From: Domibacillus indicus
Lineage (GTDB): Bacteria; Bacillota; Bacilli; Bacillales; Domibacillaceae
DNA length: 45,802 nt
Direction: 5' to 3'
Assembly: GCF_023715895.1 (NCBI RefSeq)
Contig: NZ_JAMBOO010000031.1
Span: forward strand, 1-45,802
Part shown: piece by piece, positions 2,293 to 44,126 of the stretch
Layout: each line of letters begins with the position of its first letter
Position numbering within the stretch: the first letter of the stretch is position 1
Position numbers and translations under genes: made by a program
The notes under the pieces: model-generated
Seen by the model: only the letters and a program-made list of their open reading frames with translations
Database searches by the model: none
What the model was told of the DNA's origin: nothing

Positions 2293-2659
2293 ATTTATTG
2301 TTATTAAACTAAACTGCACCTTTAGTTCAATAAGAAAATCAGCATTGTTCTTTAACAGAACCTACGTAAAAAATGCCTTTTCGGATCAAACGATTGAAAA
2401 AGGCACCTCTATTATGTGGTTTGTCTATTGCTTGTTCACCAATTTGGATGGATTGTTTATCTTATATGGGACTGGAACATCTATCGTAAATTGTTAGTCA
2501 ATAGTATTGGTCTACTATTAACCAATCTGACAGTAAAGTATTTGTCGTTCAAATGAATTTCGCGTAAAAATGTACATATTCGCACTGTCTGAAAACAGGC
2601 TCATTTGCGGCACATGTCCGCCACGCTTGCTCACTGATGCACCGACAGGGTCCGTTAGG
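2293..2659. other. Intergenic stretch, no gene seen
   Basis: I find no convincing coding region: short open frames lack ribosome-binding sites and familiar motifs. The stretch leads into the first of the small-RNA cassettes. Confidence 0.5.
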
Positions 2660-2685
2660 GTTTATCTTCCAGTAACAGCGGGTAA
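2660..2685 (+). promoter_or_regulatory. Sigma-B-like promoter of sRNA cassette 1
   Basis: GTTTAT (2660-2665), 14-bp spacer, GGGTAA (2680-2685). The general-stress sigma-B consensus is GTTTAA - about 12-15 bp - GGGTAT/A. The same arrangement with the same 14-bp spacer recurs at four other cassettes in this window. Confidence 0.7.
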
Positions 2686-2691
2686 AAAAAT

Positions 2692-2787
2692 ACCATGCGA
2701 CGATGCACAACACCTTGGATACCTCAACAGTCGTTGCATCATTAACTCATCTTTTCCCGCCGCGGGGTCGCGACCGCGGCCTTTTTT
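2692..2787 (+). ncRNA. Putative sigma-B-dependent small RNA, cassette 1
   Basis: The predicted transcript is about 96 nt, from roughly 7 bp after the GGGTAA box to the T-run at 2782-2787. The terminator is a strong GCCGCGG (2759-2765) / CCGCGGC (2774-2780) hairpin. A GATGCA (2702-2707) / TGCATC (2735-2740) helix encloses a loop with ACCTTGG and ATACCTCA, C-rich segments that could pair with Shine-Dalgarno sequences. No ribosome-binding site plus start codon is visible inside. The promoter-to-terminator spacing makes an RNA product more plausible than the open frames that cross it. Confidence 0.65.
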
Positions 2788-2798
2788 GGCGTATATAG

Positions 2799-2824
2799 GT
2801 TTATCTTCGCGTCGAAACGGGTAG
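2799..2824 (+). promoter_or_regulatory. Sigma-B-like promoter of sRNA cassette 2
   Basis: GTTTAT (2799-2804), 14-bp spacer, GGGTAG (2819-2824), starting only 12 bp after the T-run of cassette 1. The first bases (GGTTTATCTTC) repeat those of promoter 1 closely. Confidence 0.7.
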
Positions 2825-2830
2825 ATTGAT

Positions 2831-2901
2831 ATTCAGAGTAGCCCCACGCTACCTTCTGCGAGTTTCAACCCTTTGCTGCGGCGGTTACCGCGGCCTTTTT
2901 T
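2831..2901 (+). ncRNA. Putative sigma-B-dependent small RNA, cassette 2
   Basis: The predicted transcript is about 71 nt and ends in a GCTGCGG (2875-2881) / CCGCGGC (2888-2894) hairpin with one G-U pair, then six T. The body carries AGTAGCCCCACGCTACC, in which GTAG/CTAC can pair and expose CCCCA in the loop. It is the shortest of the set. No coding signals are seen. Confidence 0.62.
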
Positions 2902-2911
2902 ATATAATCCG

Positions 2912-2937
2912 GTTTACATTAGCGCTCAAGTGGGTAA
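2912..2937 (+). promoter_or_regulatory. Sigma-B-like promoter of sRNA cassette 3
   Basis: GTTTAC (2912-2917), 14-bp spacer, GGGTAA (2932-2937), placed 10 bp after the T-run of cassette 2. Confidence 0.7.
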
Positions 2938-2943
2938 ACGTTA

Positions 2944-3031
2944 TCATGTGGCAACCACACCCGCCACACCATTCTCCTGAACTATACATAGTTCGTCTTG
3001 TTGGCTGCGGATCTTTCCGCGGCCTTTTTTT
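2944..3031 (+). ncRNA. Putative sigma-B-dependent small RNA, cassette 3
   Basis: The predicted transcript is about 88 nt with three stems: TGTGG/CCACA (2947-2951/2955-2959), GAACTA/TAGTTC (2979-2984/2989-2994) and the terminator GGCTGCGG/CCGCGGCC (3003-3010/3017-3024) with seven T. The segment TTCTCCTGAAC before the second stem is anti-Shine-Dalgarno-like. The first stem, the CTCCTGA box and the terminator are shared with cassette 4 at 10557-10644, so these two are paralogues. Confidence 0.68.
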
Positions 3032-3698
3032 GTGTGCTATTACAGACAAATGTCCAACGAGCCTACTTACGAAAACGCAAATGTGCCGGTTTTCCCGCAT
3101 TTCAACACTTTCCACAGACGTCCACACGCATATTTGTGGCCCGGTGACCGGCGTTCCGTTTTCAATTAAACGTTTCATCAACCTATGTGTAATCTTTTGA
3201 CAAACCTATGCAAAGCCTACCGGCGATTTCGTCTCTACATTATTGATAGCAACGTAGCTGAGATATTTGCTGAGTGTAGGAAATGTAGCCGTTTTCTAAT
3301 CGTGCGGTACGTCGATTTTAATGTTTGCAGGGATAATGGTAACTACCTCTTCCACCTGTCCCAATACAGCCGATCTTCCCAGCACTAGACGCCAGAATTA
3401 TTTATCGGACAGGAATTAGTAAGCCCACTTTTTTTACTTCTGTATTCATTGTTTAATTAAATTTTGCTTTGTATAATAGCGTTATTTTTTGAACAGCTTA
3501 GATTTAGAGCTTTTAACAGTATGTTCAAAAAACTCTCCATTTGTTGAATAAATAATGAAAATCGATATTTGAAAATTATACAAAAATCAGCTATGAACTA
3601 AATGTCTGAAAGAAACAACTTTGAGTGGATATGTGAAAAGAAGAGCTTTCAAACAGACAGATGTCTAACAGCCATTTCATCTATACTTCTTTTTAAAA
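3032..3698. other. Intergenic stretch, no gene assigned
   Basis: No gene is supported. The part 3032-3400 is richer in G+C and short inverted repeats (for example CCGG-TGA-CCGG at about 3141-3151) than 3400-3698, which is A+T-rich. It may hold more, degenerate RNA cassettes, but I see no further GTTT-N14-GGGTA promoter or clean terminator. Confidence 0.45.
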
Positions 3699-4895: not shown

Positions 4896-5144
4896 ATGCT
4901 TAAACAACTGTCTGCATGCCAGGAAAAAATGCTGCAGTTTATAGATGACTATGTAAGCGCCAAAAACTATCCCCCGTCTATTCGTGAAATAGGTGACGCG
5001 GTTGAGCTAAAGTCTTCTTCCACAGTAAAGGGCCATCTTGATCGTTTAAAGGCATCCGGATACGTAACCTAGGAACAGGGAAAGCCGAGGACATTGAATG
5101 TGGTGAAAAAAAACGCCATAATTCCAATGAAATTAATTGCTTAA
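4896..5144 (+). pseudogene. LexA-like DNA-binding domain, cut by an in-frame stop
   Basis: ATG at 4896 after AAAGGAGAAAGG opens a 58-codon frame ending in TAG at 5070-5072. The product is the LexA winged-helix domain: LQFIDDY, then NYPPSIREIGDAVELKSSST, then VKGHLDRLKASGYVT. These correspond to the YPPSVREIG and SSSTVHGHL segments of Bacillus LexA. Reading through the TAG gives EQGKPRTLNVV, also LexA-like, until TAA at 5142-5144. The Ser/Lys protease and dimerisation domain is absent, so this is either a relic or a stand-alone DNA-binding domain. The strong ribosome-binding site leaves translation possible. A terminator follows. Confidence 0.7.
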
Positions 5145-5920: not shown

Positions 5921-6872
5921 CTATAAAAAAGCCAGGGAAGCCGTGTATCAGCGCTTTTCTTCCCCTTCCAATCTAGAAGCAAGACTTATGCGAAAAGGTT
6001 TAGGGGCTGGTACTTTATCATGCCGGGTACGCATGGTTCATTCAGCTATATGGAAGGCATCTATACACACAGGTTAACGCCTGACTATTCCATTGAAATG
6101 GACAAGCGCAGCACAAAGCCTGGATACGCGGTGTTAAATCTGCCGACCGTCTATTCCCTCACCTATCAAGTCATGGATCTGCTTTGTCAGCAGGTTCCAG
6201 TGGCCAATCTGTATATGGAACGGCTAAAAGACCGATGGATCATTCATATGAAAGATGCCCGGTTAAATGGTGTTTCGGTTGAGTTAGCTGACTTCATTAA
6301 GCGTTCGGCTAAACAAGGGCGTATGCGGTATGTTCCAGAGTATGAGGCGCTTAGTATTGAATCAGAGGAGGAATTGCTATCGGTTTCCCTGTCAATTGAT
6401 ATTAAAGATTGGCTTCGCAAAAAGGGAGAACAGACAGGCAAGAGTATGCAGGATATTGCAGCGGAGATCCTTGAAGAAGTGTATAAACGCGAGCAAGGCC
6501 AAAGCGGAGATAACATCAATCATTTTCAAGAATTCAATCAAAATCAGAACTGACTTATCTAAGTCGGTTCTTTTATTTTGTATTCTGTGATTGTAATTGC
6601 TTGATTCCTGCTTTAGTTATAAGTGGAGAACCTATTTCAAAAGCTAAGTGGACCCTTCCACACAGCTTAAACCGCTGTATATTTAACTTAAGTTTTCTAC
6701 GGAAGGGCTATTCTCCATATCCTCATTGATTGGAAACCATATTGATACATCTATTATAAGCGTGCTCCTTGAAATCTAATGCACGTCGTTTAACCTTAAT
6801 GAAAGTCTATCTTGAACACATTTATTATTTTTAAATTTTTATTTGAATTTAGCACATAATACAAAAAAATAC
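5921..6872 (+). repeat. Dispersed repeat R1, copy A (best preserved)
   Basis: About 950 bp: a decayed coding part (5921-6553) and a conserved 3' tail of about 320 bp. The tail contains a GACTTA/TAAGTC terminator just after the stop, a second hairpin AAGCT..GTGG / CCAC..AGCTT (6641-6668) and an A+T-rich end with GAATTTAGCACATAATA. Copies B-F lie at 7826, 11316, 19468, 23541 and 39708, all in the same orientation. I see no terminal inverted repeats or target duplications. Confidence 0.8.
6020..6553 (+). pseudogene. R1-encoded protein of unknown family, 177-codon open part
   Basis: The longest surviving R1 reading frame. Visible segments are FSYMEGIYTHR, KRSTKPGYAVLNLPTVYSL, YMERLKDRWIIHMKDARLNG, IKRSAKQGRMRYVPEYEAL and a charged C-terminal part (DIKDWLRKKGEQTGKSMQD) that resembles a small helical DNA-binding or ribbon-helix-helix segment. 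The ATG at 6020 has no ribosome-binding site. Comparison with copies C and D shows that homology continues upstream (EARLMRKGLGNWYFIVPG) but a 1-nt deletion near 6006 breaks the frame here. I do not recognise the family and give no function. Confidence 0.6.
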
Positions 6873-7825: not shown

Positions 7826-8457
7826 AAGCGTAGCCAGCACAATGCCTAGATATGCTGTGCTTAAATCTGCCGACCATTTATTCCCTTACCTATAAGTAGT
7901 GAAGCTGCTTTATCAGCAGGTTCCAGTGGCCAATCTATATATGGAACGCTTAAAGGACCGATGGGTGATTTATATGAAAGATGCTCGGCTAAACAAGGAC
8001 GTGTGCGGTATGTTCCGGAATACGAAGCACTCAGCACTGAATCAGAGGAAGAATTGCTGTCAGTTTCACTGTCCATGGATATTAAGGACTGGCTGCGGGA
8101 AAAGGAGAACAGACCGGCAAGATTATGCAGGATATTGCGGCAGAAATCCTTGAGAAATATATAAACGCGAAGAAGACCAAAGCAGAGATAATATCAATTA
8201 CTTTCAAGAGTTCAACCAAAATCGGAACTGACTTATCTAAGTCGGTTCTTTTATTTTGTATTCTGTGATTGTAATTGCCTGGTTCCTGCTTTAGTTAAGC
8301 AGAGAATCTATTTCAAAAGCTATGTGGAAGGAACCACGTGGCTTGAACCGCTACATATTTAACTTAAGTTTTCTACAGAAAGGCTCCCCGTTGAATGCAA
8401 ACCATATTGAGCTCTCTTTTAATTGAGTATGTATTTGAATTTAGCGCAAGATATAAA
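7826..8457 (+). repeat. Dispersed repeat R1, copy B (5'-truncated, degenerate)
   Basis: Homology to copy A starts inside the gene (AGCACAATGCCTAGATATGC, the STKPGYAV region) about 14 bp after the coat operon's terminator. The reading frame is broken by stops, an internal deletion and frameshifts, so no full product can be made. The 3' tail is well kept, with the GACTTA/AAGTC terminator and the hairpin AAGCTATGTGG / CCACGTGGCTT (about 8317-8344). Confidence 0.78.
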
Positions 8458-10524: not shown

Positions 10525-10550
10525 GTTTACCTTCTCATGGCAACGGGTAG
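10525..10550 (+). promoter_or_regulatory. Sigma-B-like promoter of sRNA cassette 4
   Basis: GTTTAC (10525-10530), 14-bp spacer, GGGTAG (10545-10550). Same spacing as the three promoters at 2660-2937. Confidence 0.7.
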
Positions 10551-10556
10551 GGAAAT

Positions 10557-10644
10557 AATGTGGTAACCACACAACCTCCTGACGACTTTTTTGTTTGCTA
10601 CATACTGGTTGCTTTTTGCTGCGGATCTTTCCGCAGCTTTTTTT
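10557..10644 (+). ncRNA. Putative sigma-B-dependent small RNA, cassette 4
   Basis: The predicted transcript is about 88 nt and paralogous to cassette 3. It shares the 5' hairpin TGTGG-TAA-CCACA, a CCTCCTGACG box (a perfect anti-Shine-Dalgarno CCTCC) and the terminator GCTGCGG (10618-10624) / CCGCAGC (10631-10637) with T7. In cassette 3 the terminator has a G-U where this one has a Watson-Crick pair, so the stem is kept. No coding signals are seen. Confidence 0.68.
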
Positions 10645-10651
10645 ATACACG

Positions 10652-10677
10652 GTTTGATTTACTGACAAAACGGGTAA
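10652..10677 (+). promoter_or_regulatory. Sigma-B-like promoter of sRNA cassette 5
   Basis: GTTTGA (10652-10657), 14-bp spacer, GGGTAA (10672-10677), beginning 8 bp after the T-run of cassette 4. Confidence 0.65.
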
Positions 10678-10683
10678 CAAATA

Positions 10684-10772
10684 AACTATGTAGCTAAGGG
10701 ACACCTCATCAGCCCTGAAAAGTTGCATAACTCCATACCATTTACCACGGATTTGCTTCCGTGGCTTCTTTA
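10684..10772 (+). ncRNA. Putative sigma-B-dependent small RNA, cassette 5
   Basis: The predicted transcript is about 88 nt. An AGGG/CCCT stem presents a loop with ACACCTCATC. The terminator is CCACGG (10745-10750) / CCGTGG (10759-10764) followed by CTTCTTT, a weaker U-tract than in the others. The architecture is the same as cassettes 1-4 but the sequence is more diverged. Confidence 0.58.
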
Positions 10773-11315: not shown

Positions 11316-12217
11316 TCTGAAAGAATTCAGTGAGCTGCACGAAAAGAAGATTTGGTAAGACAGGCTTTCGCAGCGGTAGTACTACAATAAAAAAGACAAG
11401 GAAGCCTCATACTAGCGCTTTTCTTCTCCTTCCATTCCTGAGGCAAGACTTATGCGCAAAGGTTTATAGGACTGGTACTTTATTGTGCCGGGAACCGATG
11501 AAACATTCAGCTATATGGAAGGGATCTATACACACAGGTTAACACCTGACTACTCCATTGAAATGGGTAAACGCAGTACAAAGCCCGGATATGCGGTGCT
11601 GAATCTGCCGGCCGTCTATTCCCTGACCTATCAAGTAATGGATCTGCTTTATCAGCAGGTGCCGGTGGCCAATATGTACATGGAGCGGTTAAAAGACCGA
11701 TGGGTCATTCATATGAAAGATGCCCGGATAAATGGTGTTTCGGTTGAATTAGCTGACTTTATTAAACGCTCAGCTAAACAGGGGCGTGTGCGATATGTTC
11801 TGGAATATGAGGCGCTTAGTATTGAATCGGAGGAGGAATTGCTGTAAGTATTGGCTGCGAAAGAAAGGTGAACAGACAGGCAAGAGTATGCAGAATATTA
11901 CGGCGGAGCTCCTTGAGGAAGTGTATAAAAGAAAACAAGGCCAAAGTGGGAATAATATCAATCATTTTCAAGAATTCAATCAAAACCGGAGCTGACTTGT
12001 CTAAGTCAGTTCTTTTATTTCTATAATTGTAATTGCCTGGTTCCTGTTTTAGTTAAACGGAAAACCTATTTCAAAAGCTATATGGAAGGAACCATATTGC
12101 TTGAACCGCTACATATTTAACTTAATTTTTCTACAGAAAAGCTCTCCGTCGACTACAAACTATGTTAATAGATTTTTTGACAAAATATATATTTTAATTT
12201 AGTGTATAGTGTAAAAA
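11316..12217 (+). repeat. Dispersed repeat R1, copy C
   Basis: Extends further 5' than copy A (homology from LKEFSEL), with the whole 3' tail. Its second tail hairpin is AAGCTATATGG / CCATATTGCTT (about 12075-12102). Relative to copies B and E, the pair G-C has become A-T on both sides, a compensatory change. Confidence 0.8.
11319..11992 (+). pseudogene. R1 gene, copy C, with several stops and a small deletion
   Basis: Read with its stops, the frame gives LKEFSELHEKKIW*DRLSQR, YYNKKDKEASY*RFSS, EARLMRKGL*DWYFIVPG, then an open part from 11485 to 11847 through FSYMEGIYTHR and KPGYAVLNLPAVYSL. After LLSIESEEELL a deletion removes the codons corresponding to LSVSLSIDIKD, and the C-terminal part (WLRKKGEQTGKSMQ) continues in another frame to TGA at about 11992. 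It is clearly non-functional as it stands. Confidence 0.75.
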
Positions 12218-14611: not shown

Positions 14612-17600
14612 ATGATACGACGTTATCATGTAGTCGCGATTCCCATCCGGATGGTGGTAAACAATTTTGGCGACCATAACCCTGATGGACAGATGTATGT
14701 GTTGAAGGAAAATGAAGCAAAGGTAAAAGAGCTGATTCGCAAAAATCCCTTTACACCGGTAGAACTTGTACAGCCGCTGACGATCAGAGCGAACGAAGGG
14801 GATACTGTCGAAATTCTTTTTGAAAATCAGCTTCCTTTTGCCGCGGGCATGCATTTTCAAGATCTCGATTATAACGTGCTAACGTCAGACGGAGCGAATG
14901 TCGGTTTTAATCCAAGCTCACTGGCCGAGTGCGGCGAACAGCTTCTGTACAGGCTGGATGCCACGTATGAAGGAATTTGTTTTTTCACCGATGTCGGCAA
15001 TGTATCGAGCACCGAAGAAGGCTCCAGTATCCAGGGCCTTTTTGGTACGCTGCTCGTTGAAAAAAGAGGTTCCTGGTGGACCGATCCCGTAACAGGCGGT
15101 CCGATTAACAGCGGCGTGTTCGCGGATATTCACAACCCTTTTCTGCCCTCCTTCCGTGAATATGCATGGTTTTTTCATGATGAAATGGAAGTGGATGACT
15201 TAACCGGCAACCGGCCGCTGAACCCGATGACCAATCAGGAAGCTGAATCGTTTCACGGCGTTAATTACCGGTATGAGCCTCTTCATAACCGCCTGAGGCT
15301 GGTGGAAGAAGGTGTCGTATCTCCCGAGGTTGAGGGCGAAGAGGTTCATCATGACTCCTGGATGTTCGGCGATCCTGCAACGCCGATTCTACGCGGGTAT
15401 CGAGATGACCCGGCCACCATCCGCCTTATTCATGCAGCTGCCAAAGAAACACACGTTTTCCACTACCATGCGCACCAGTGGCTGAGAGACCCGAGTAATG
15501 TTCAGTCTGAATTTGTGGATGCACAGGCGATCAGCCCGCAGTCTCACTACAGCGTTCAGCCTTTATACGGACTTGGAAGTCTGCACGGTGCAATCGGAGA
15601 TGTAATCATTCACTGCCACCTATATCCACATTTTGAAGCCGGGATGTGGGGACTAAACCGGATTTTCGACACATTGCAGGACGGAACCCAGTGTTATCCA
15701 AACGGCACACCGATCGCGCCGCTGCAGCCGTTGCCGGATCGCCCTTGCCCGCCGCGTCCGACAAAAGAAAGGCCAGGATTCCCGAACTTCATTCCCGGAA
15801 AAGTCGGCTGCAAGGCACCCCGGCCTCCTCTTGGCATTGTCGGCGGCCGGGACATGACAGAGCTTGAGAAAAATGCCGCTATACCAAATGCAAGGCCTGG
15901 AGCTGTTTTTGCAGATCCATGCATGAATAATTCGGTCGTCGAGGAGTTCAATATCTCAGTAATTGAGATACCGATTGTGTATAACAAACAAGGCTGGTAT
16001 GACCCAAAAGGAAGAATCTATGTGCGGGATGAAGATCTTGATGATGTGCTGTCCGGAAAAAAAGAACCGGAGCCGCTTGTACTGCATGTAGCAGCCAACA
16101 CATGTATTCGAGTTAATTTTACCAATCGGCTCCCTCACATTTTGGATGGCGACGCATTTCAGCTGGTGACCCGGACCTATGAGACGGCTTTTCATATTCA
16201 CTTTGTGAAATTCGATGTTCTCGTAGCAGACGGCGCTAACGTAGGTTGGAATTATGACAGCTCCGTTCTGCCTAACGAAACCATTCGGTATGAATACTTT
16301 GCCGAAACGGAAGTAAAAGCCTTTTTTGTTCACGATCACTTGTTTCCTGTTTCCCACCAGCAGCATGGCGTTTTTGGAACCATTGTTGTGCAGCCGCGCT
16401 TCTCTCAATTTTTGGATTCTAAAACAGGCGAAGAAACGGATAAGGGCACCGAAATTACGGTTCACAATCCGATTATCCCTGATTACCGTGACTTTGCCCT
16501 GTTTGTCCAAGATTTCGTTTTCTTGTTTGACAAGAACGGCTGTCCGATTCAGCCGCCCCAGTTCCCCGGCTCACAGGACGATCCTGGTATTTTTGCGGTT
16601 AATTATAAAAATGAACCGCTGCAGTTCCGGCTTGGAAAAGACTGTGACCCGGCTTACTCGTTCAGCTCTTATGTCAATGGAGACCCTGTTACCCCTGTTT
16701 TTCAGGCTTATGAAGGAGATTCCATCCGTATTCGGCTGCTGCAGGGTGCCCATGAGGAATCGCACAGCTTTAACCTGCACGGCTTAAGATGGAGATCAGA
16801 ACGGCCCAGCAACGATTCCCAGATCCGTTCACAGCAGCATATCGGCATTTCAGAGTCTTTTACGTTTGAAATGGATATTCCAAGAGCCGGAGATTATTTA
16901 TGGGCTTTTGAAACGGAAGAAGATGTGTGGAACGGCACGTGGGGATTGATTCGTGCATATGACCAGGAAGTGGAGCACTTGATCCCTTTGTATGGCCGGT
17001 CTTTACCTGAACCAAGAACAAGGCCGCTGCCTGAAGTAACCGGAAAGCCTCCGGCTCCCGCTGATCCGCAGGCGACCCTGCCACCTGAGGTAGCGCACAA
17101 TGCGCCGATTCGCCGATACAATGTTGTCGCATTTCAAACACCGATTTTATACAACGCATTTGGAGACCATGACCCATTTGGCATCGTATTTGCTTTAGAA
17201 GAAGATGTAGAGGACATTCTATGCGGCAAAAAAAATCCAGAGCCGCTGGTATTGAGAGGAAATTCTGGTGATCTGGTCGAAGTTACTTTGACCAGCCGGC
17301 TGAGGTTTGATTTATTCCCGTTTCAGGATGGCATTCATCCTTACCCGCCGGTAAAAGAGCAGGCTTTTTATCCGCCATCTCTGCGGATTTCCCTGTATGT
17401 CAATATGCTGGATTATGACGTGACGACTTCAAGCGGCGGCACCATCGGCTTTAATCCCGATCAGACAGTGGGACCTGGCGAAACAATCACGTACCGCTGG
17501 CATGTGCAGGATGCCATGGGTACCTGTGCCATGTGGGATATGGCCGACTTACGGAATCACCGCTCCTTTGGAACGTTCGGTGCTTTTATTGCGGAGCCGC

Positions 17601-18262
17601 GGTTTACAACATACCACGACCCTTATACGCTGGAACCTGTCCGAACAGGCACAAATGTGGTGCTCAGGAACCCGTTTGGCAGTGAATACAGAGAATTTGT
17701 TTTGGTTATGCATGACGGTGTTCGTTTAGAAGATAAGCACGGCAAAGTGATTATCGATCCACTGGACGGCGTCATTCCAGAACCTGATCCTGAAGACGAT
17801 GAAGTAGACACCTATGATTTCGGGTCACGCGGCTTCAACTATCGGACAGAGCGGTTAATTAACCGTTTTAGAAAACATCCAGTTTTAGGTGACTTATTTA
17901 GCTCAAAGGTTCACGGTGATCCGGCCACACCTGTTTTCGAAGCATATCCAGGTGATCCTGTCGTTATTCGGCTTACGACACCGTCTGAACGCCAGAGAGC
18001 GCATACCTTCCACCTTCACGGCCATAATTGGAAATTTGACCCGAGAGATATTGAATCCCGTATTGATTCATACACCGGTCATATGGTTGCCGGTGTCACA
18101 GAAGACCTGCTTTTAATTGGTGGTGCTGGAGGAACGTATAACTATCCTGGGGATTATATGTACCGGTCCGGCAACATTCGCTGGGATATCGAACAGGGAA
18201 TGTGGGGGATTATGCGGGTTCACAGCAAAGTACAGCCCCATTTGCCGCCTTTATCTCATTAA
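14612..18262 (+). CDS. mnxG: MnxG multicopper oxidase (spore Mn(II) oxidase)
   Basis: A 1216-residue protein, practically the length of MnxG from Mn-oxidising Bacillus (about 1217). ATG at 14612 follows GAGGAGGAAAA. It is built from cupredoxin-like repeats (NFGDHNPDG near the start, again NAFGDHDPFG near residue 850). Copper motifs visible: HVFHYHAHQW near residue 282, HCHLYPHFEAGMWG near 333, FFVHDHLF near 571, HSFNLHGLRW near 716 and HTFHLHGHNW near 1131. MnxG oxidises soluble Mn(II) to Mn(IV) oxide on the exosporium/coat surface. There is no signal peptide, as expected for a spore-layer protein made in the mother cell. mnxA-D, found upstream in the classical operon, are absent here. It ends before a shared bidirectional terminator at 18304. 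Confidence 0.9.
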   Translation: MIRRYHVVAIPIRMVVNNFGDHNPDGQMYVLKENEAKVKELIRKNPFTPVELVQPLTIRANEGDTVEILFENQLPFAAGMHFQDLDYNVLTSDGANVGFNPSSLAECGEQLLYRLDATYEGICFFTDVGNVSSTEEGSSIQGLFGTLLVEKRGSWWTDPVTGGPINSGVFADIHNPFLPSFREYAWFFHDEMEVDDLTGNRPLNPMTNQEAESFHGVNYRYEPLHNRLRLVEEGVVSPEVEGEEVHHDSWMFGDPATPILRGYRDDPATIRLIHAAAKETHVFHYHAHQWLRDPSNVQSEFVDAQAISPQSHYSVQPLYGLGSLHGAIGDVIIHCHLYPHFEAGMWGLNRIFDTLQDGTQCYPNGTPIAPLQPLPDRPCPPRPTKERPGFPNFIPGKVGCKAPRPPLGIVGGRDMTELEKNAAIPNARPGAVFADPCMNNSVVEEFNISVIEIPIVYNKQGWYDPKGRIYVRDEDLDDVLSGKKEPEPLVLHVAANTCIRVNFTNRLPHILDGDAFQLVTRTYETAFHIHFVKFDVLVADGANVGWNYDSSVLPNETIRYEYFAETEVKAFFVHDHLFPVSHQQHGVFGTIVVQPRFSQFLDSKTGEETDKGTEITVHNPIIPDYRDFALFVQDFVFLFDKNGCPIQPPQFPGSQDDPGIFAVNYKNEPLQFRLGKDCDPAYSFSSYVNGDPVTPVFQAYEGDSIRIRLLQGAHEESHSFNLHGLRWRSERPSNDSQIRSQQHIGISESFTFEMDIPRAGDYLWAFETEEDVWNGTWGLIRAYDQEVEHLIPLYGRSLPEPRTRPLPEVTGKPPAPADPQATLPPEVAHNAPIRRYNVVAFQTPILYNAFGDHDPFGIVFALEEDVEDILCGKKNPEPLVLRGNSGDLVEVTLTSRLRFDLFPFQDGIHPYPPVKEQAFYPPSLRISLYVNMLDYDVTTSSGGTIGFNPDQTVGPGETITYRWHVQDAMGTCAMWDMADLRNHRSFGTFGAFIAEPRFTTYHDPYTLEPVRTGTNVVLRNPFGSEYREFVLVMHDGVRLEDKHGKVIIDPLDGVIPEPDPEDDEVDTYDFGSRGFNYRTERLINRFRKHPVLGDLFSSKVHGDPATPVFEAYPGDPVVIRLTTPSERQRAHTFHLHGHNWKFDPRDIESRIDSYTGHMVAGVTEDLLLIGGAGGTYNYPGDYMYRSGNIRWDIEQGMWGIMRVHSKVQPHLPPLSH

Positions 18263-19213: not shown

Positions 19214-19387
19214 TTATTCTATACTTGAAAATTCGGTTAGACTTTCTCTGTCCCTATTTACTACTAGTAAGTCTCCTTTATGAATAATCTGATCTGGAGA
19301 TGGGGATACGGTGATGTCCATGCCGCTTACGATGGCAATGACACTGATGCCATATTTTGCACGGATATCAAGTTCTACAGACTCTTT
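19214..19387 (-). pseudogene. KtrA/TrkA C-terminal (RCK_C) fragment
   Basis: The minus strand encodes KESVELDIRAKYGISVIAIV, then SGMDITVSPSPDQIIHKGDL and LVVNRDRESLTEF before TAA. This matches the RCK_C ligand-binding domain of the KtrA/KtrC potassium-uptake gating proteins. A stop lies immediately upstream (GGC TGA AAA), and the nucleotide-binding RCK_N part is missing. Only the last 57 codons and the terminator remain, so it is a relic of a deleted gene. Confidence 0.72.
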
Positions 19388-19467
19388 TCAGCCATTCCGT
19401 GGGGATTAATAATTCTTCTATATTGTACTCTTTTGAAAATGTACTTATGTAGAAAACTTGTAGAAGG

Positions 19468-19580
19468 TCTGCTTATACGCAAAGGTCTAGGGAACTGGTA
19501 CTTTATTGTACCGGGAACCAATGATACGTTCAGCTACATGGAAGAGACCTATACACACAGGTCAACACCCAGCTACCCGA
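19468..19580 (+). repeat. Dispersed repeat R1, copy D (short 5' fragment)
   Basis: Encodes IRKGLGNWYFIVPGTNDT, then FSYMEETYTHRSTPSY, and then loses homology. It preserves the frame around GLGNWYF that is broken in copy A (1-nt deletion) and copy C (stop), and so helps rebuild the ancestral sequence. Confidence 0.75.
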
Positions 19581-19860
19581 AATTAAAATTAGCGACGAGG
19601 TTCATTATATCCACGATAATACTTGTGAATAAGTACACCCAAGAGCATTTGCCTGCGGTAACCTGATGATCATAAAACTTGCTTCAGTAAACGGCTGAAG
19701 CAAGTTTTATGATTATTATCGCAAAATAAAATGCAAAAATAGTTTCTTAAATAAAAAAAGCAAGACGAATAAACAGATTATTTCTAAAAAAGGTTGTATT
19801 TTAATTTTTCAGAATATAGAATAATGAAATAGTTATTGTTTACATCAGGAGGTTGCACAA

Positions 19861-23540: not shown

Positions 23541-24652
23541 AAGCCCTCAGGCTGTTGAAAGAATTTTGCGAGCTGTACGAAAAGAAAATTTGGGAAGACC
23601 TGCTTTCACAGCAGCAATACTACAATAAAAAAGCCAAAAAAGCGGTTTATCAGTAGGTGCCATTGGCCAATTACTAACAAAAGAGTACCTAGACAAAAGT
23701 ATACTTTTGTATAGGTACTCTTTTGTATAGGTATTCTTTTGCACATATACACTTATTATGATTAACGTGTTTTCCTGAACCTAATATAACAGGAAGCACT
23801 CCCACTGTTTAGGATAGAAGCAATATATTTCTCCTATCAAAATTTAAAGATGAAAAATTCCCTTACGCAAGAGAGCGATTTAAAAGAATAACGAATAGAA
23901 GAACGATACTTTGAGCTACATGGAAGGGTTCTATACACATAGGTCAACACCTGACTATTCCATTGAAATGGGCAAGCTCAGCACGAAGCCCGGATATGTG
24001 GTGCTCAATCTGCTGGCCGTCTATTCCCCCGCCTATCAAGTATGGATCTGCTTTATCAGCAGGTTCCCGTAGTCAATCTGTATATGAAACGGTTAAAGGA
24101 CCGATGGGTCATTCATATGAAAGATGCACGGTTAAATGGTGTTTGGGTTGAGTTAGCTGACTTTGTTAAACGCTCAGCAAAACAGGGACGTGTGCGTTAT
24201 GTTCCTGAATATAAAGCACTCAGCATTGAGTCAGAGGAGGAATTGCTATCGGTTTCCCTTTCAGTCGATATTAAAGATTGGCTCCGAACCAAAGGAGAAC
24301 AGACAGGCAAGAGTATGCAGGACATTGCTGCTGAGATCCCTGAAGAAGTATATAAACGCGATCAAGGACGCAGCGGGGATAATATCAATCATTTTTAAGT
24401 ATTAAAGTAAAATTGGAGCTGACTTATTTAAGTCAGTCTTTTATTTTATTTCTGTGATTGTAATTGCCTGGTTCCTGTTTTAGTTAAGCGGAAAACCTGT
24501 TGCAAAAGCTATGTGGAAGGGACCACATGGCTTGAACCGCTACATATTTAACTTCAGTTTTCTAGAGAAAGGCTCTTCGTCGAATACAAACCGTGTTCGG
24601 AGCTTTTTTAAATAAATATATATGTGAATTTAGCACATAATATAAAAAAACA
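23541..24652 (+). repeat. Dispersed repeat R1, copy E, interrupted
   Basis: Two parts: a 5' piece (23541-23662; ALRLLKEFCELYEKKIWEDL, SQQQYYNKKAKKAVYQ, stop) and the main body with the tail (23901-24652). Between them lie about 240 bp that include the palindrome at 23679-23724. The main body is frameshifted near 24040. The longest frame, 24042-24398, runs through YMKRLKDRWVIHMKDARLNG to YKRDQGRSGD. The tail hairpin is AAGCTATGTGG / CCACATGGCTT (about 24505-24533). Confidence 0.78.
23679..23724. repeat. 46-bp palindrome P, solitary copy
   Basis: AAAAGAGTACCTA and its complement TAGGTACTCTTTT flank a CAAAAGTATACTTTTG core. Its length and layout match the palindromes that head the three tandem repeats at 44729, 44939 and 45148, so it is a dispersed member of the same family. 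Confidence 0.8.
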
Positions 24653-43331: not shown

Positions 43332-44126
43332 TCAGACAACTTGCTTAAGGGACGATTGTTTGTATGCAATCGGGCTTACATAGCCTAGTGTTCCGTGAAT
43401 CCGCCGTTTATTAAACCAGTTAACATAATCACTGAATTCCAGCGTAAGATGCTCGAGGCTATCAAACTTCATTTGGCTGATAAACTCTGTTTTGATGATT
43501 TTAAATGTGGCTTCCGCCACGGCATTATCGTATGGACAACCTTTCATGCTTAAAGAGCGGCCAATCTGGAAGGCCGCTAACGTTTCATCGATGAGCTGGT
43601 TTTTGAACTCGCTGCCACGGTCAGTATGGAACAGCTGTATATCCCGCAGATCACCTTGAATGGAAGAAAAAGCCCGTGCGACAAGGCTTGCATCTTTGTT
43701 GGGTCCTGTGCTGAAGCCAATGATTTCGCGATTAAAGAGATCGACAAAGATACATACGTAATGCCATTTATTTTTGACTTTGACGTATGTTAAATCACTG
43801 ACGACTACTTTTTTGGCTTCTGTCTGCTCAAACTCGCGTTTTAATTCGTTTGCCTGAGCTGACTCATTACAGGGAGTTTTCTGCGGCTTGAACTGTGCCA
43901 CTGTATAGGAAGAAACAAGCCCTTGTTCCTTCATGATACGGCCAATGCGTCTTCTAGAAACGGTAAATCCACGCTTGTGCAGTTCGACTTTGATCTTACG
44001 CGTGCCGTAGGCACTTCGGTTTTGTTTGAAAATCTCTATGACAGCGCCTGTTACGTCGTCTTCTGACTGACGCTCTTTGGCCTCATAGTAGTACGTACTA
44101 CGGAAGATTTGCAGGACGCTGCACAT
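43332..44126 (-). CDS. IS3-family transposase OrfB (integrase)
   Basis: 264 codons: an N-terminal HTH_21-like part (RRRIGRIMKEQGLVSSYTVA) and the DDE core: VVSDLTYVKVKNKWHYVCIF, then FHTDRGSEFKNQLIDETLAA and NAVAEATFKIIKTEF. The catalytic D, D and E are present. Upstream, the frame continues beyond the nominal start toward orfA (KRNKDKYSVSAMC), so the active enzyme is probably made as an OrfAB fusion by -1 frameshifting near 44160. This copy could be functional. Confidence 0.88.
   Translation of the reverse strand: MCSVLQIFRSTYYYEAKERQSEDDVTGAVIEIFKQNRSAYGTRKIKVELHKRGFTVSRRRIGRIMKEQGLVSSYTVAQFKPQKTPCNESAQANELKREFEQTEAKKVVVSDLTYVKVKNKWHYVCIFVDLFNREIIGFSTGPNKDASLVARAFSSIQGDLRDIQLFHTDRGSEFKNQLIDETLAAFQIGRSLSMKGCPYDNAVAEATFKIIKTEFISQMKFDSLEHLTLEFSDYVNWFNKRRIHGTLGYVSPIAYKQSSLKQVV

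Follow-up and report, generated by a model that had tools for sequence, protein, structure and literature searches.

A multi-copy family of putative general-stress small RNA genes in tandem arrays in Domibacillus

Multi-copy families of small RNAs (sRNAs) have been described in several bacterial groups. In Listeria monocytogenes, LhrC is a multi-copy, stress-induced sRNA in which each copy has its own promoter, CU-rich UCCC motifs in the loops and in a single-stranded linker bind mRNA, and the LisRK two-component system is needed; the same source gives five copies and names C-rich motifs in unpaired regions as typical of sRNAs that block Shine-Dalgarno (SD) sequences in low-GC bacteria (PMC4132741), and another account gives seven copies (PMC11697453). 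The four homologous sRNAs CcsR1-4 of Rhodobacter form one stress-sigma-controlled unit with a ccaF1-CcsR1-4 precursor, and the alpha-r14 (cuckoo) RNAs of alphaproteobacteria hold an anti-Shine-Dalgarno motif unpaired while their stems diverge (PMC8307010, PMC10746234). The FopS RNAs of Bacteroides are paralogous sRNAs with 12-15 copies per genome, a conserved seed, a terminator, pairing at the translation start, sigma-ABfr promoters, a response to bile salts and RbpB as a partner (PMC11697453).

We analysed a 45,802-nucleotide stretch of Domibacillus indicus DNA (the window; contig C106 of its own genome, G000) and found that this bacterium appears to carry about 29 related sRNA genes, the majority arranged directly one behind another and the majority equipped with an individual promoter of general-stress type. 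The family is like LhrC in being multi-copy, with C-rich motifs unpaired and a promoter for each copy, and unlike it in that the promoters are of the sigma-B type and the copies number about 29. Unlike CcsR1-4, each unit has a promoter and a terminator to itself, and the phylum is a different one. The family resembles FopS as a large paralogous sRNA family with a terminator and with proposed pairing at the translation start. It differs from FopS, with its sigma-ABfr promoters, bile-salt response and RbpB partner, in these features, in belonging to another phylum and in its tandem units, of which the FopS passages make no mention.

Other regulatory RNAs linked to sigma B are known from Gram-positive bacteria, among them RsaA and the Sbr RNAs of S. 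aureus and SbrE of Listeria, and a SigB-dependent antisense RNA has reportedly been found in B. subtilis. To our knowledge RsaA, the Sbr RNAs and SbrE are single genes and not multi-copy arrays; what the Domibacillus units would share with them is a noncoding RNA made by a stress sigma factor. The first-pass annotation knew of no described Bacillus RNA family with the present layout. In Rfam, at the gathering cut-off, there were 0 matches in the window and 8 in 14 loci, none of them on a cassette. At relaxed E, the window array gave two matches far below the cut-off and L010:4200-4800 gave none. Rfam presumably includes LhrC. Assignment to a known RNA family was set aside, since no Rfam family reaches its gathering score on a cassette. 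Among the papers listed in the open-licence literature on sigma-B sRNAs, multicopy sRNAs and Domibacillus, none showed such a family.

Read directly from the sequence, positions 2660-3031 hold three plus-strand units, head to tail. In each, GTTTAY and GGGTA stand 14 bp apart and precede the body, a GC hairpin and a T-run. GTTTAY to the end of GGGTA spans 25 nt in all three, as expected from the spacing of exactly 14 bp first described, and 11 and 10 bp separate the T-run of one unit from the following promoter, within the 10-12 bp given there. Bodies measure 78-103 nt, and terminator-like hairpins fold in 3/3 units. The remaining two of the five cassettes mentioned at first reading were located at 10525-10771 (units 4 and 5; Table 1). 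GTTTA-N15-GGGTA occurs at four places in the window, all on the plus strand, against 0.07 expected (100 shuffles, maximum 1). Elsewhere the window contains a repeated ORF family (..FSYMEGIYTHRLTPDYSIEM..STKPGYAVLNL..) with some truncated copies; three members were compared with Pfam, two without a match at E<=0.001 and one with an RHH match below the cut-off. By eye, one gene resembles a LexA-like N-terminal domain with an early stop codon, apparently a fragment, and another a 1216-aa protein of repeated multicopper-oxidase/cupredoxin type; an IS3-like transposase has rve_2 and HTH_21 domains.

Two covariance models were used for the search. R1 was built from ten RNAs of tandem rows with the promoter excluded, and R2 from promoter plus RNA, with 37 training sequences, 22 of them from the own genome. 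R1 gave 31 matches in the own genome at E<=10 and 18 at E<=0.01; perfect promoter boxes accompany 18 of the 31, a figure that is partly circular because many of these matches had been picked by promoter pattern. Across 121 genomes (12 Domibacillus), R1 matched at E<=0.01 in seven, all Domibacillus, and in 0 of 109 relatives outside the genus. Outside the own genome this promoter-free model found 20 matches. In 11 of them the stretch examined contains both boxes without mismatch, compared with 35 of 20,000 windows drawn at random from these loci, cassettes included, which supports sigma-B promoters beside the RNAs. Weak R1 matches include what look by eye like ordinary gene terminators, such as C93:373312 and G008:C32:40388.

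With R2, the own genome gave 33 matches at E<=0.05 and 29 at E<=4.9e-4, of which 25 lie in nine same-strand arrays of 2-4 units; exact GTTTA/GGGTA boxes are found in 20 of the 29 and are missing from nine. A multi-copy family with clear paralogues in one genome is in line with the earlier view that the cassettes arose by duplication. At E<=0.05, 10 of 13 Domibacillus genomes had matches (G121 25, G008 20, G005 7, G010 6, G003 5, G004 3, and G001, G009 and G011 1 each; G002, G006 and the 77% complete G007 had 0). Several of the weak matches in G001, G003, G004, G009, G010, G011 and the own contig C97 have different boxes and may lie outside the family. In a sample of 397 genomes from the order, R2 matched five at E<=0.001; all five are Domibacillus, of which the sample contained nine, and 0 of the 388 non-genus genomes were matched, under stricter filters with which weak matches are lost. 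The family is apparently restricted to one genus.

The layout alone, defined as a tandem pair of exact promoters 80-110 nt apart and no RNA sequence, was present in 2 of the 397 genomes, both Domibacillus, at six places, against two places for a reversed-pattern control. A loose promoter pattern found 77 places in the own genome (36 forward, 41 reverse) and its reversed control 66 (28 + 38), so that this pattern is mostly background on its own; a subset of its places formed short tandem rows with look-alike RNAs and terminators after them. In public named genomes a strict cassette pattern found 17 stretches, 6 of them in Domibacillus (Domibacillus sp. PGB-M46, D. robiginosus WS 4628 and D. iocasae DSM 29979), and the remaining 11, in scattered taxa, look like chance. 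It had 0 matches in the window because the units there deviate at its fixed positions, GGGTAA or TTGCTGCGG.

Table 1. Features of the window and related loci. G, C and L numbers denote genomes, contigs and loci; positions without a handle are window positions.
Feature	Location	Strand	Details
Unit 1, landmarks	GTTTAT 2660; GGGTA 2680-2684; T-run end 2787	+	
Unit 1 promoter, sigma-B-type	2660..2684	+	GTTTAT-N14-GGGTA; same sequence in G008 and G121
Unit 1 RNA, group III (predicted)	2685..2787	+	long hairpin UACCAUGCGACGAUGCACAACA...UCGUUGCAUCA, then terminator
Unit 2, landmarks	promoter start 2799; GGGTA 2819-2823; T-run end 2901	+	
Unit 2 promoter, sigma-B-type	2799..2823	+	
Unit 2 RNA, group Ib (predicted)	2824..2901	+	GUAGC-CCCAC-GCUAC hairpin, CCUUCUGCGAGUUUCAACCC, terminator
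Unit 3, landmarks	promoter start 2912; GGGTA 2932-2936; T-run end 3031	+	
Unit 3 promoter, sigma-B-type	2912..2936	+	
Unit 3 RNA, group I (predicted)	2937..3031	+	GUGGC-AACCACACCC-GCCAC hairpin, UCUCCUGA, UACAUA motif, terminator GCUGCGGAUCUUUCCGCGGCCU7; R1 75.8 bits, E 4.1e-14 (in R1 training set)
Unit 4 promoter, sigma-B-type	10525..10549	+	exact boxes
Unit 4 RNA, group I (predicted)	10550..10644	+	ACAACCUCCUGA, CUACAUA, terminator; R1 87.4 bits, R2 84.0 bits (in both training sets)
Unit 5	10652..10771	+	weaker promoter GTTTG-N15-GGGTA; RNA with GGGACACCUCAUCAGCCCU hairpin, terminator; R2 46.2 bits (outside R2 training set)
Unit 5 homologues	L014:4491-4611; L013:4993-5113		
Own-genome arrays	C88; C115; C98; C44; C106		units per array: C88 3 + 4; C115 3 + 2; C98 3 + 3; C44 2; C106 3 + 2
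Own-genome single units (four)	C136:36495; C44:79577; C158:55662; C169:136573		
Repeated ORF family	6020-6553; about 7899-8164; 11485-11847; 19280-19666; 24042-24398; L013:3240-3584		
LexA-like fragment	4896-5072		
Multicopper-oxidase/cupredoxin-like gene	14612-18262		
IS3-like transposase gene	43332-44126		
yjcZ-like genes	L012:4006-4167; L138:5104-5268		similar flanks in L067, L133, L078
DUF2512-type gene	L013:3875-4291	-	
DUF2512-type counterpart	from L014:5124 on		
Second sRNA-like locus	G000:C97:38628-38736 (= L068:3129-3237); L146:3025-3132; L079:4685-4788; L083:5197-5296		

The RNAs can be arranged in groups by anatomy. Group I hairpin arms read GUGGU...ACCAC, or GUGGC...GCCAC, GGUAG...CUACC or GUAGC...GCUAC; CUCCU or a similar word follows, most members have UACAUA, and the terminator is close to GCUGCGGA...UCCGCGGC-U6-8. 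Group II is shorter, with GGUUU...AACC in some members and a promoter spacing of 13 bp in 3/5, and group III has a single long hairpin. For composition we used 41 non-redundant bodies, drawn from 74 of 103 R2 matches with bodies more than 85% alike collapsed; weak, partial or duplicate places were left out (for example L078:1-102 = L145:7000-7102). G makes up 12.8% and C 27.7%, and C exceeds G in 40/41. C-rich 4-nt windows are unpaired at 0.85, compared with 0.63 for all windows and 0.28 for G-rich ones. A C-rich motif in an unpaired region, a feature of SD-binding sRNAs of low-GC Gram-positives, is present in the set.

Several words exceed their frequency in shuffled bodies, an enrichment to which paralogue homology contributes: UACAUA occurs in 18 of 41 bodies (0.9 in shuffles), CCUCC, the core of the 16S tail, in 8 (2.5), CUCCUG in 7 (0.3) and CCUCCU in 8 (1.0). 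CCUCC is absent from window units 1 and 2 and from most group II and III bodies, and the cuckoo/CcsR motif CCUCCUCCC is absent from all 41, CCUCC alone being found in the eight. For CUCC, CCCC, CCUU or CCUC taken together there was no excess (32 bodies against 31.1 in shuffles); CUCC was present in 14 (10.4) and CCCC, near the shuffle level, in 13 (9.8). Folded on their own, the bodies have a mean z of -1.22 against shuffles and fall below -1 in 24/41. The arms of hairpin 1 pair in 92 of 95 cells (permuted mean 48, largest 74), a test that is biased because the arms were chosen by eye. In the terminator stem two pairs have both sides changed, which 141 of 500 shuffles reach; covariation is uninformative there because the stem is so conserved.

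The sigma factor itself is encoded in the own genome (SigB, TIGR02941, 436.9 bits, cut-off 315), with an RsbW gene before it (TIGR01924, 232.6 bits, cut-off 155), a gene for an RsbV-like anti-sigma-antagonist (superfamily match) in the rsbV place ahead of sigB and, in the rsbX place after it, an uncharacterised PP2C-like gene whose only match, SpoIIE, is below the cut-off. SigB scores above the cut-off in 12/13 genus genomes, and the 13th (77% complete) has a fragment. The sigma-B consensus consists of GTTTAA-like and GGGTAT-like boxes 12-15 bp apart, and a SigB promoter is expected before rsbV, as in B. subtilis. Here GTTTA-N15-GGGTA lies 55 bp upstream of rsbV (C91:81479-81503), and its boxes are identical to those of the array units, which strengthens the initial description of their promoters as sigma-B-like. 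DUF2512-type genes divergent from two arrays have sigma-B-like boxes of their own (Pfam was run on one of the two). Separately, four genus genomes contain a second sRNA-like locus with GYATA-N15-GG.. boxes, a small C-rich hairpin, CUCCUA and a terminator; its boxes look like the sigma-F consensus, and it is perhaps a sporulation counterpart.

Because sigma F recognises sequences related to sigma-B sites, the units could be sRNA genes as proposed and yet be driven by sigma A or a sporulation sigma factor, their boxes being merely sigma-B-like. The sigma-F-like boxes of the second locus are what this reading has in its favour; the array units, however, have GTTTA/GGGTA as before the genome's own rsbV and not GYATA, and we hold another driver to be very unlikely. 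Coding potential was also weighed. Seven ORFs of 31-124 aa overlap 2660-3031, and the four other than those of 31, 35 and 49 aa were compared with the orthologous stretch of G008. Two are open there, 2570-2824 (+) with GTG instead of ATG as its start and 2549-2713 (-) with a different end, which would suit small-protein genes, but in G121 one base is absent inside both. In the other two, 2826-3200 (+) and 2900-3181 (-), a 7-nt insertion in G008 shifts the frame, and the Pfam match of ORF 2826-3200, DUF6632, stays below its cut-off (18.5 vs 27 bits). No SD-plus-start motif occurs within the three RNAs, and paralogues differ by many indels. The bodies had been called free of coding signals, and the disrupted frames among the four ORFs checked agree; a protein-coding reading of the region is unlikely, and the notion that every unit is a gene for a short peptide under SigB strikes us as barely credible.

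Conservation bears on two further explanations. Nine comparisons were made for six own loci with matching arrays in G008 or G121. The arrays might mainly sequester SigB-polymerase as decoys, with the short transcripts as by-products, and it fits this idea that promoters are stacked in tandem with early termination and that the boxes are the most conserved part (219/227 = 96.5%). Against it, the RNA bodies (928/979 = 94.8%) exceed the promoter spacer (209/234 = 89.3%), have recurrent words and fold better than shuffles, and some units with weakened boxes have kept the RNA (C98:56641, C44:79577); decoys are an improbable account. Alternatively, an interspersed or selfish repeat of the REP/MITE kind might resemble promoters and terminators by chance. 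A multi-copy, genus-only sequence of varying copy number, with yjcZ-like genes shared by some flanks, could be such an element, but the units stand head to tail on one strand with 5-11 bp between them in 15 of 18 measured gaps (38-47 bp in three), the bodies differ among units while boxes and terminator (584/622 = 93.9%) stay constant, and the bodies are conserved relative to flanks of 75.4%, a value possibly too low because stretches included may not be homologous. Window 2558-3100 also had no match in collections of 72,556 plasmid and 50,697 phage records, on which grounds an origin in mobile DNA was rejected. We judge a repeat element quite improbable.

Whole units differ between close relatives. 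G008 has all three units of the window array, at 93.5% identity over 1 kb, and G121, assigned to the same species as the own genome, has unit 1 only, with units 2-3 absent. G121 matches window positions 2556-2787 and 3019-3532, and the join falls in the shared terminator; the simplest reading of this one case is that units 2-3 were lost in the G121 line. In unit 1, the RNA from UACCAUGCG up to the terminator stem shows no difference among G000, G121 and G008, and in G121 one A is absent near the 5' end and two terminator positions are changed. The promoter of the first C115 unit (C115:148308, E 0.024) was apparently lost in the own genome; the counterpart of this unit in G008 has exact boxes. 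Small yjcZ-like genes (PF09680, two tested) lie upstream of sRNA units, and the surroundings common to several loci suggest segmental duplication.

We also asked how the RNAs would pair with mRNAs. Matches of at least 6 nt to the 16S tail occur in 16/41 bodies, compared with 8.9 in shuffles (largest 15), and matches of at least 5 nt in 31/41, compared with 26.4 (up to 34). The word AGGAGGTGGT is the complement of the group I seed and is present at seven places in the own genome. Four of these are sRNA units, read on the other strand; each of the remaining three lies, by eye, at ribosome-binding distance before a start codon, once in front of a tatC-like gene and twice in front of citrate-transporter-like paralogues (names by eye). 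The citrate-transporter-like genes are at C115:4492 and C136:148187, and their SD sequences are complementary to group I RNAs over 12 and 10 nt. This placement is weak evidence because such purine words tend to be ribosome-binding sites anyway. In a duplex test with 14 of the 41 RNAs and 40 of 60 genes, chosen for having an SD, the energy was -14.6 kcal/mol at the start region, compared with -12.5 and -12.3 within genes and -10.2 upstream. Shuffled sRNAs reached -14.1 kcal/mol at the start region, and composition therefore explains most of the preference. The composition of these RNAs makes them generally SD-seeking, and their pairing with targets does not exceed what this control gives.

Taken together, we consider it likely that the units belong to one multi-copy family of regulatory sRNAs that are induced by stress, act in trans and lower translation through SD pairing. 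The sequences show the anatomy, the extent of the family in the genome, its conservation, a gene for SigB and one difference in unit number; transcription, SigB dependence, mRNA pairing and repression are what we infer. Under stress, SigB-RNA polymerase would start at the GTTTAY-N13/14-GGGTA promoter of every unit and stop at the terminator of the same unit. The resulting RNAs, roughly 70-100 nt long, would each combine a short hairpin with a C/U-rich, G-poor part that contains CCUCC or CCCC in some and UACAUA in most of group I. The C/U-rich part would pair with purine-rich SD regions of mRNAs and so reduce translation. Many units in parallel may let dosage rise quickly to a high level, and differences in loops and seeds may confer partly different targets; the overlapping targets suggested at first reading are plausible for units with a common CCUCC. 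Arrays would gain and lose whole units, with recombination between near-identical terminators as a likely route. A bolder proposal, which we advance only tentatively and regard as rather doubtful, is that the bank of about 29 sigma-B sRNA genes recombines through its terminators and acts jointly as an SD-directed brake on translation that competes with the 16S tail, with units specialised by their loops. If this is true, few bacterial sRNA gene families would be as large, and the brake on translation under stress would be a graded one.

The initial observation was right, the evidence supports its first interpretation well, and the scale, about 29 units and nine arrays, goes beyond what was then stated. 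RNAs of this kind are known from LhrC, CcsR, the cuckoo RNAs and FopS, and the family, its copy number and its self-contained sigma-B build look new. Among the families compared, the largest has 12-15 copies (PMC11697453) vs about 29 here, and for none is a comparably regular build described, in which promoter, hairpin, seed and terminator are followed by the next promoter about 10 bp on. This Domibacillus genome would contain a large undescribed set of putative stress-induced regulators that, judged from their sequences, probably inhibit translation by base-pairing to ribosome-binding sites. An array with three units in the own genome has a single one in G121; the set offers a natural experiment in the growth, divergence and loss of sRNA families, and bears on the need for dosage in a general stress response.
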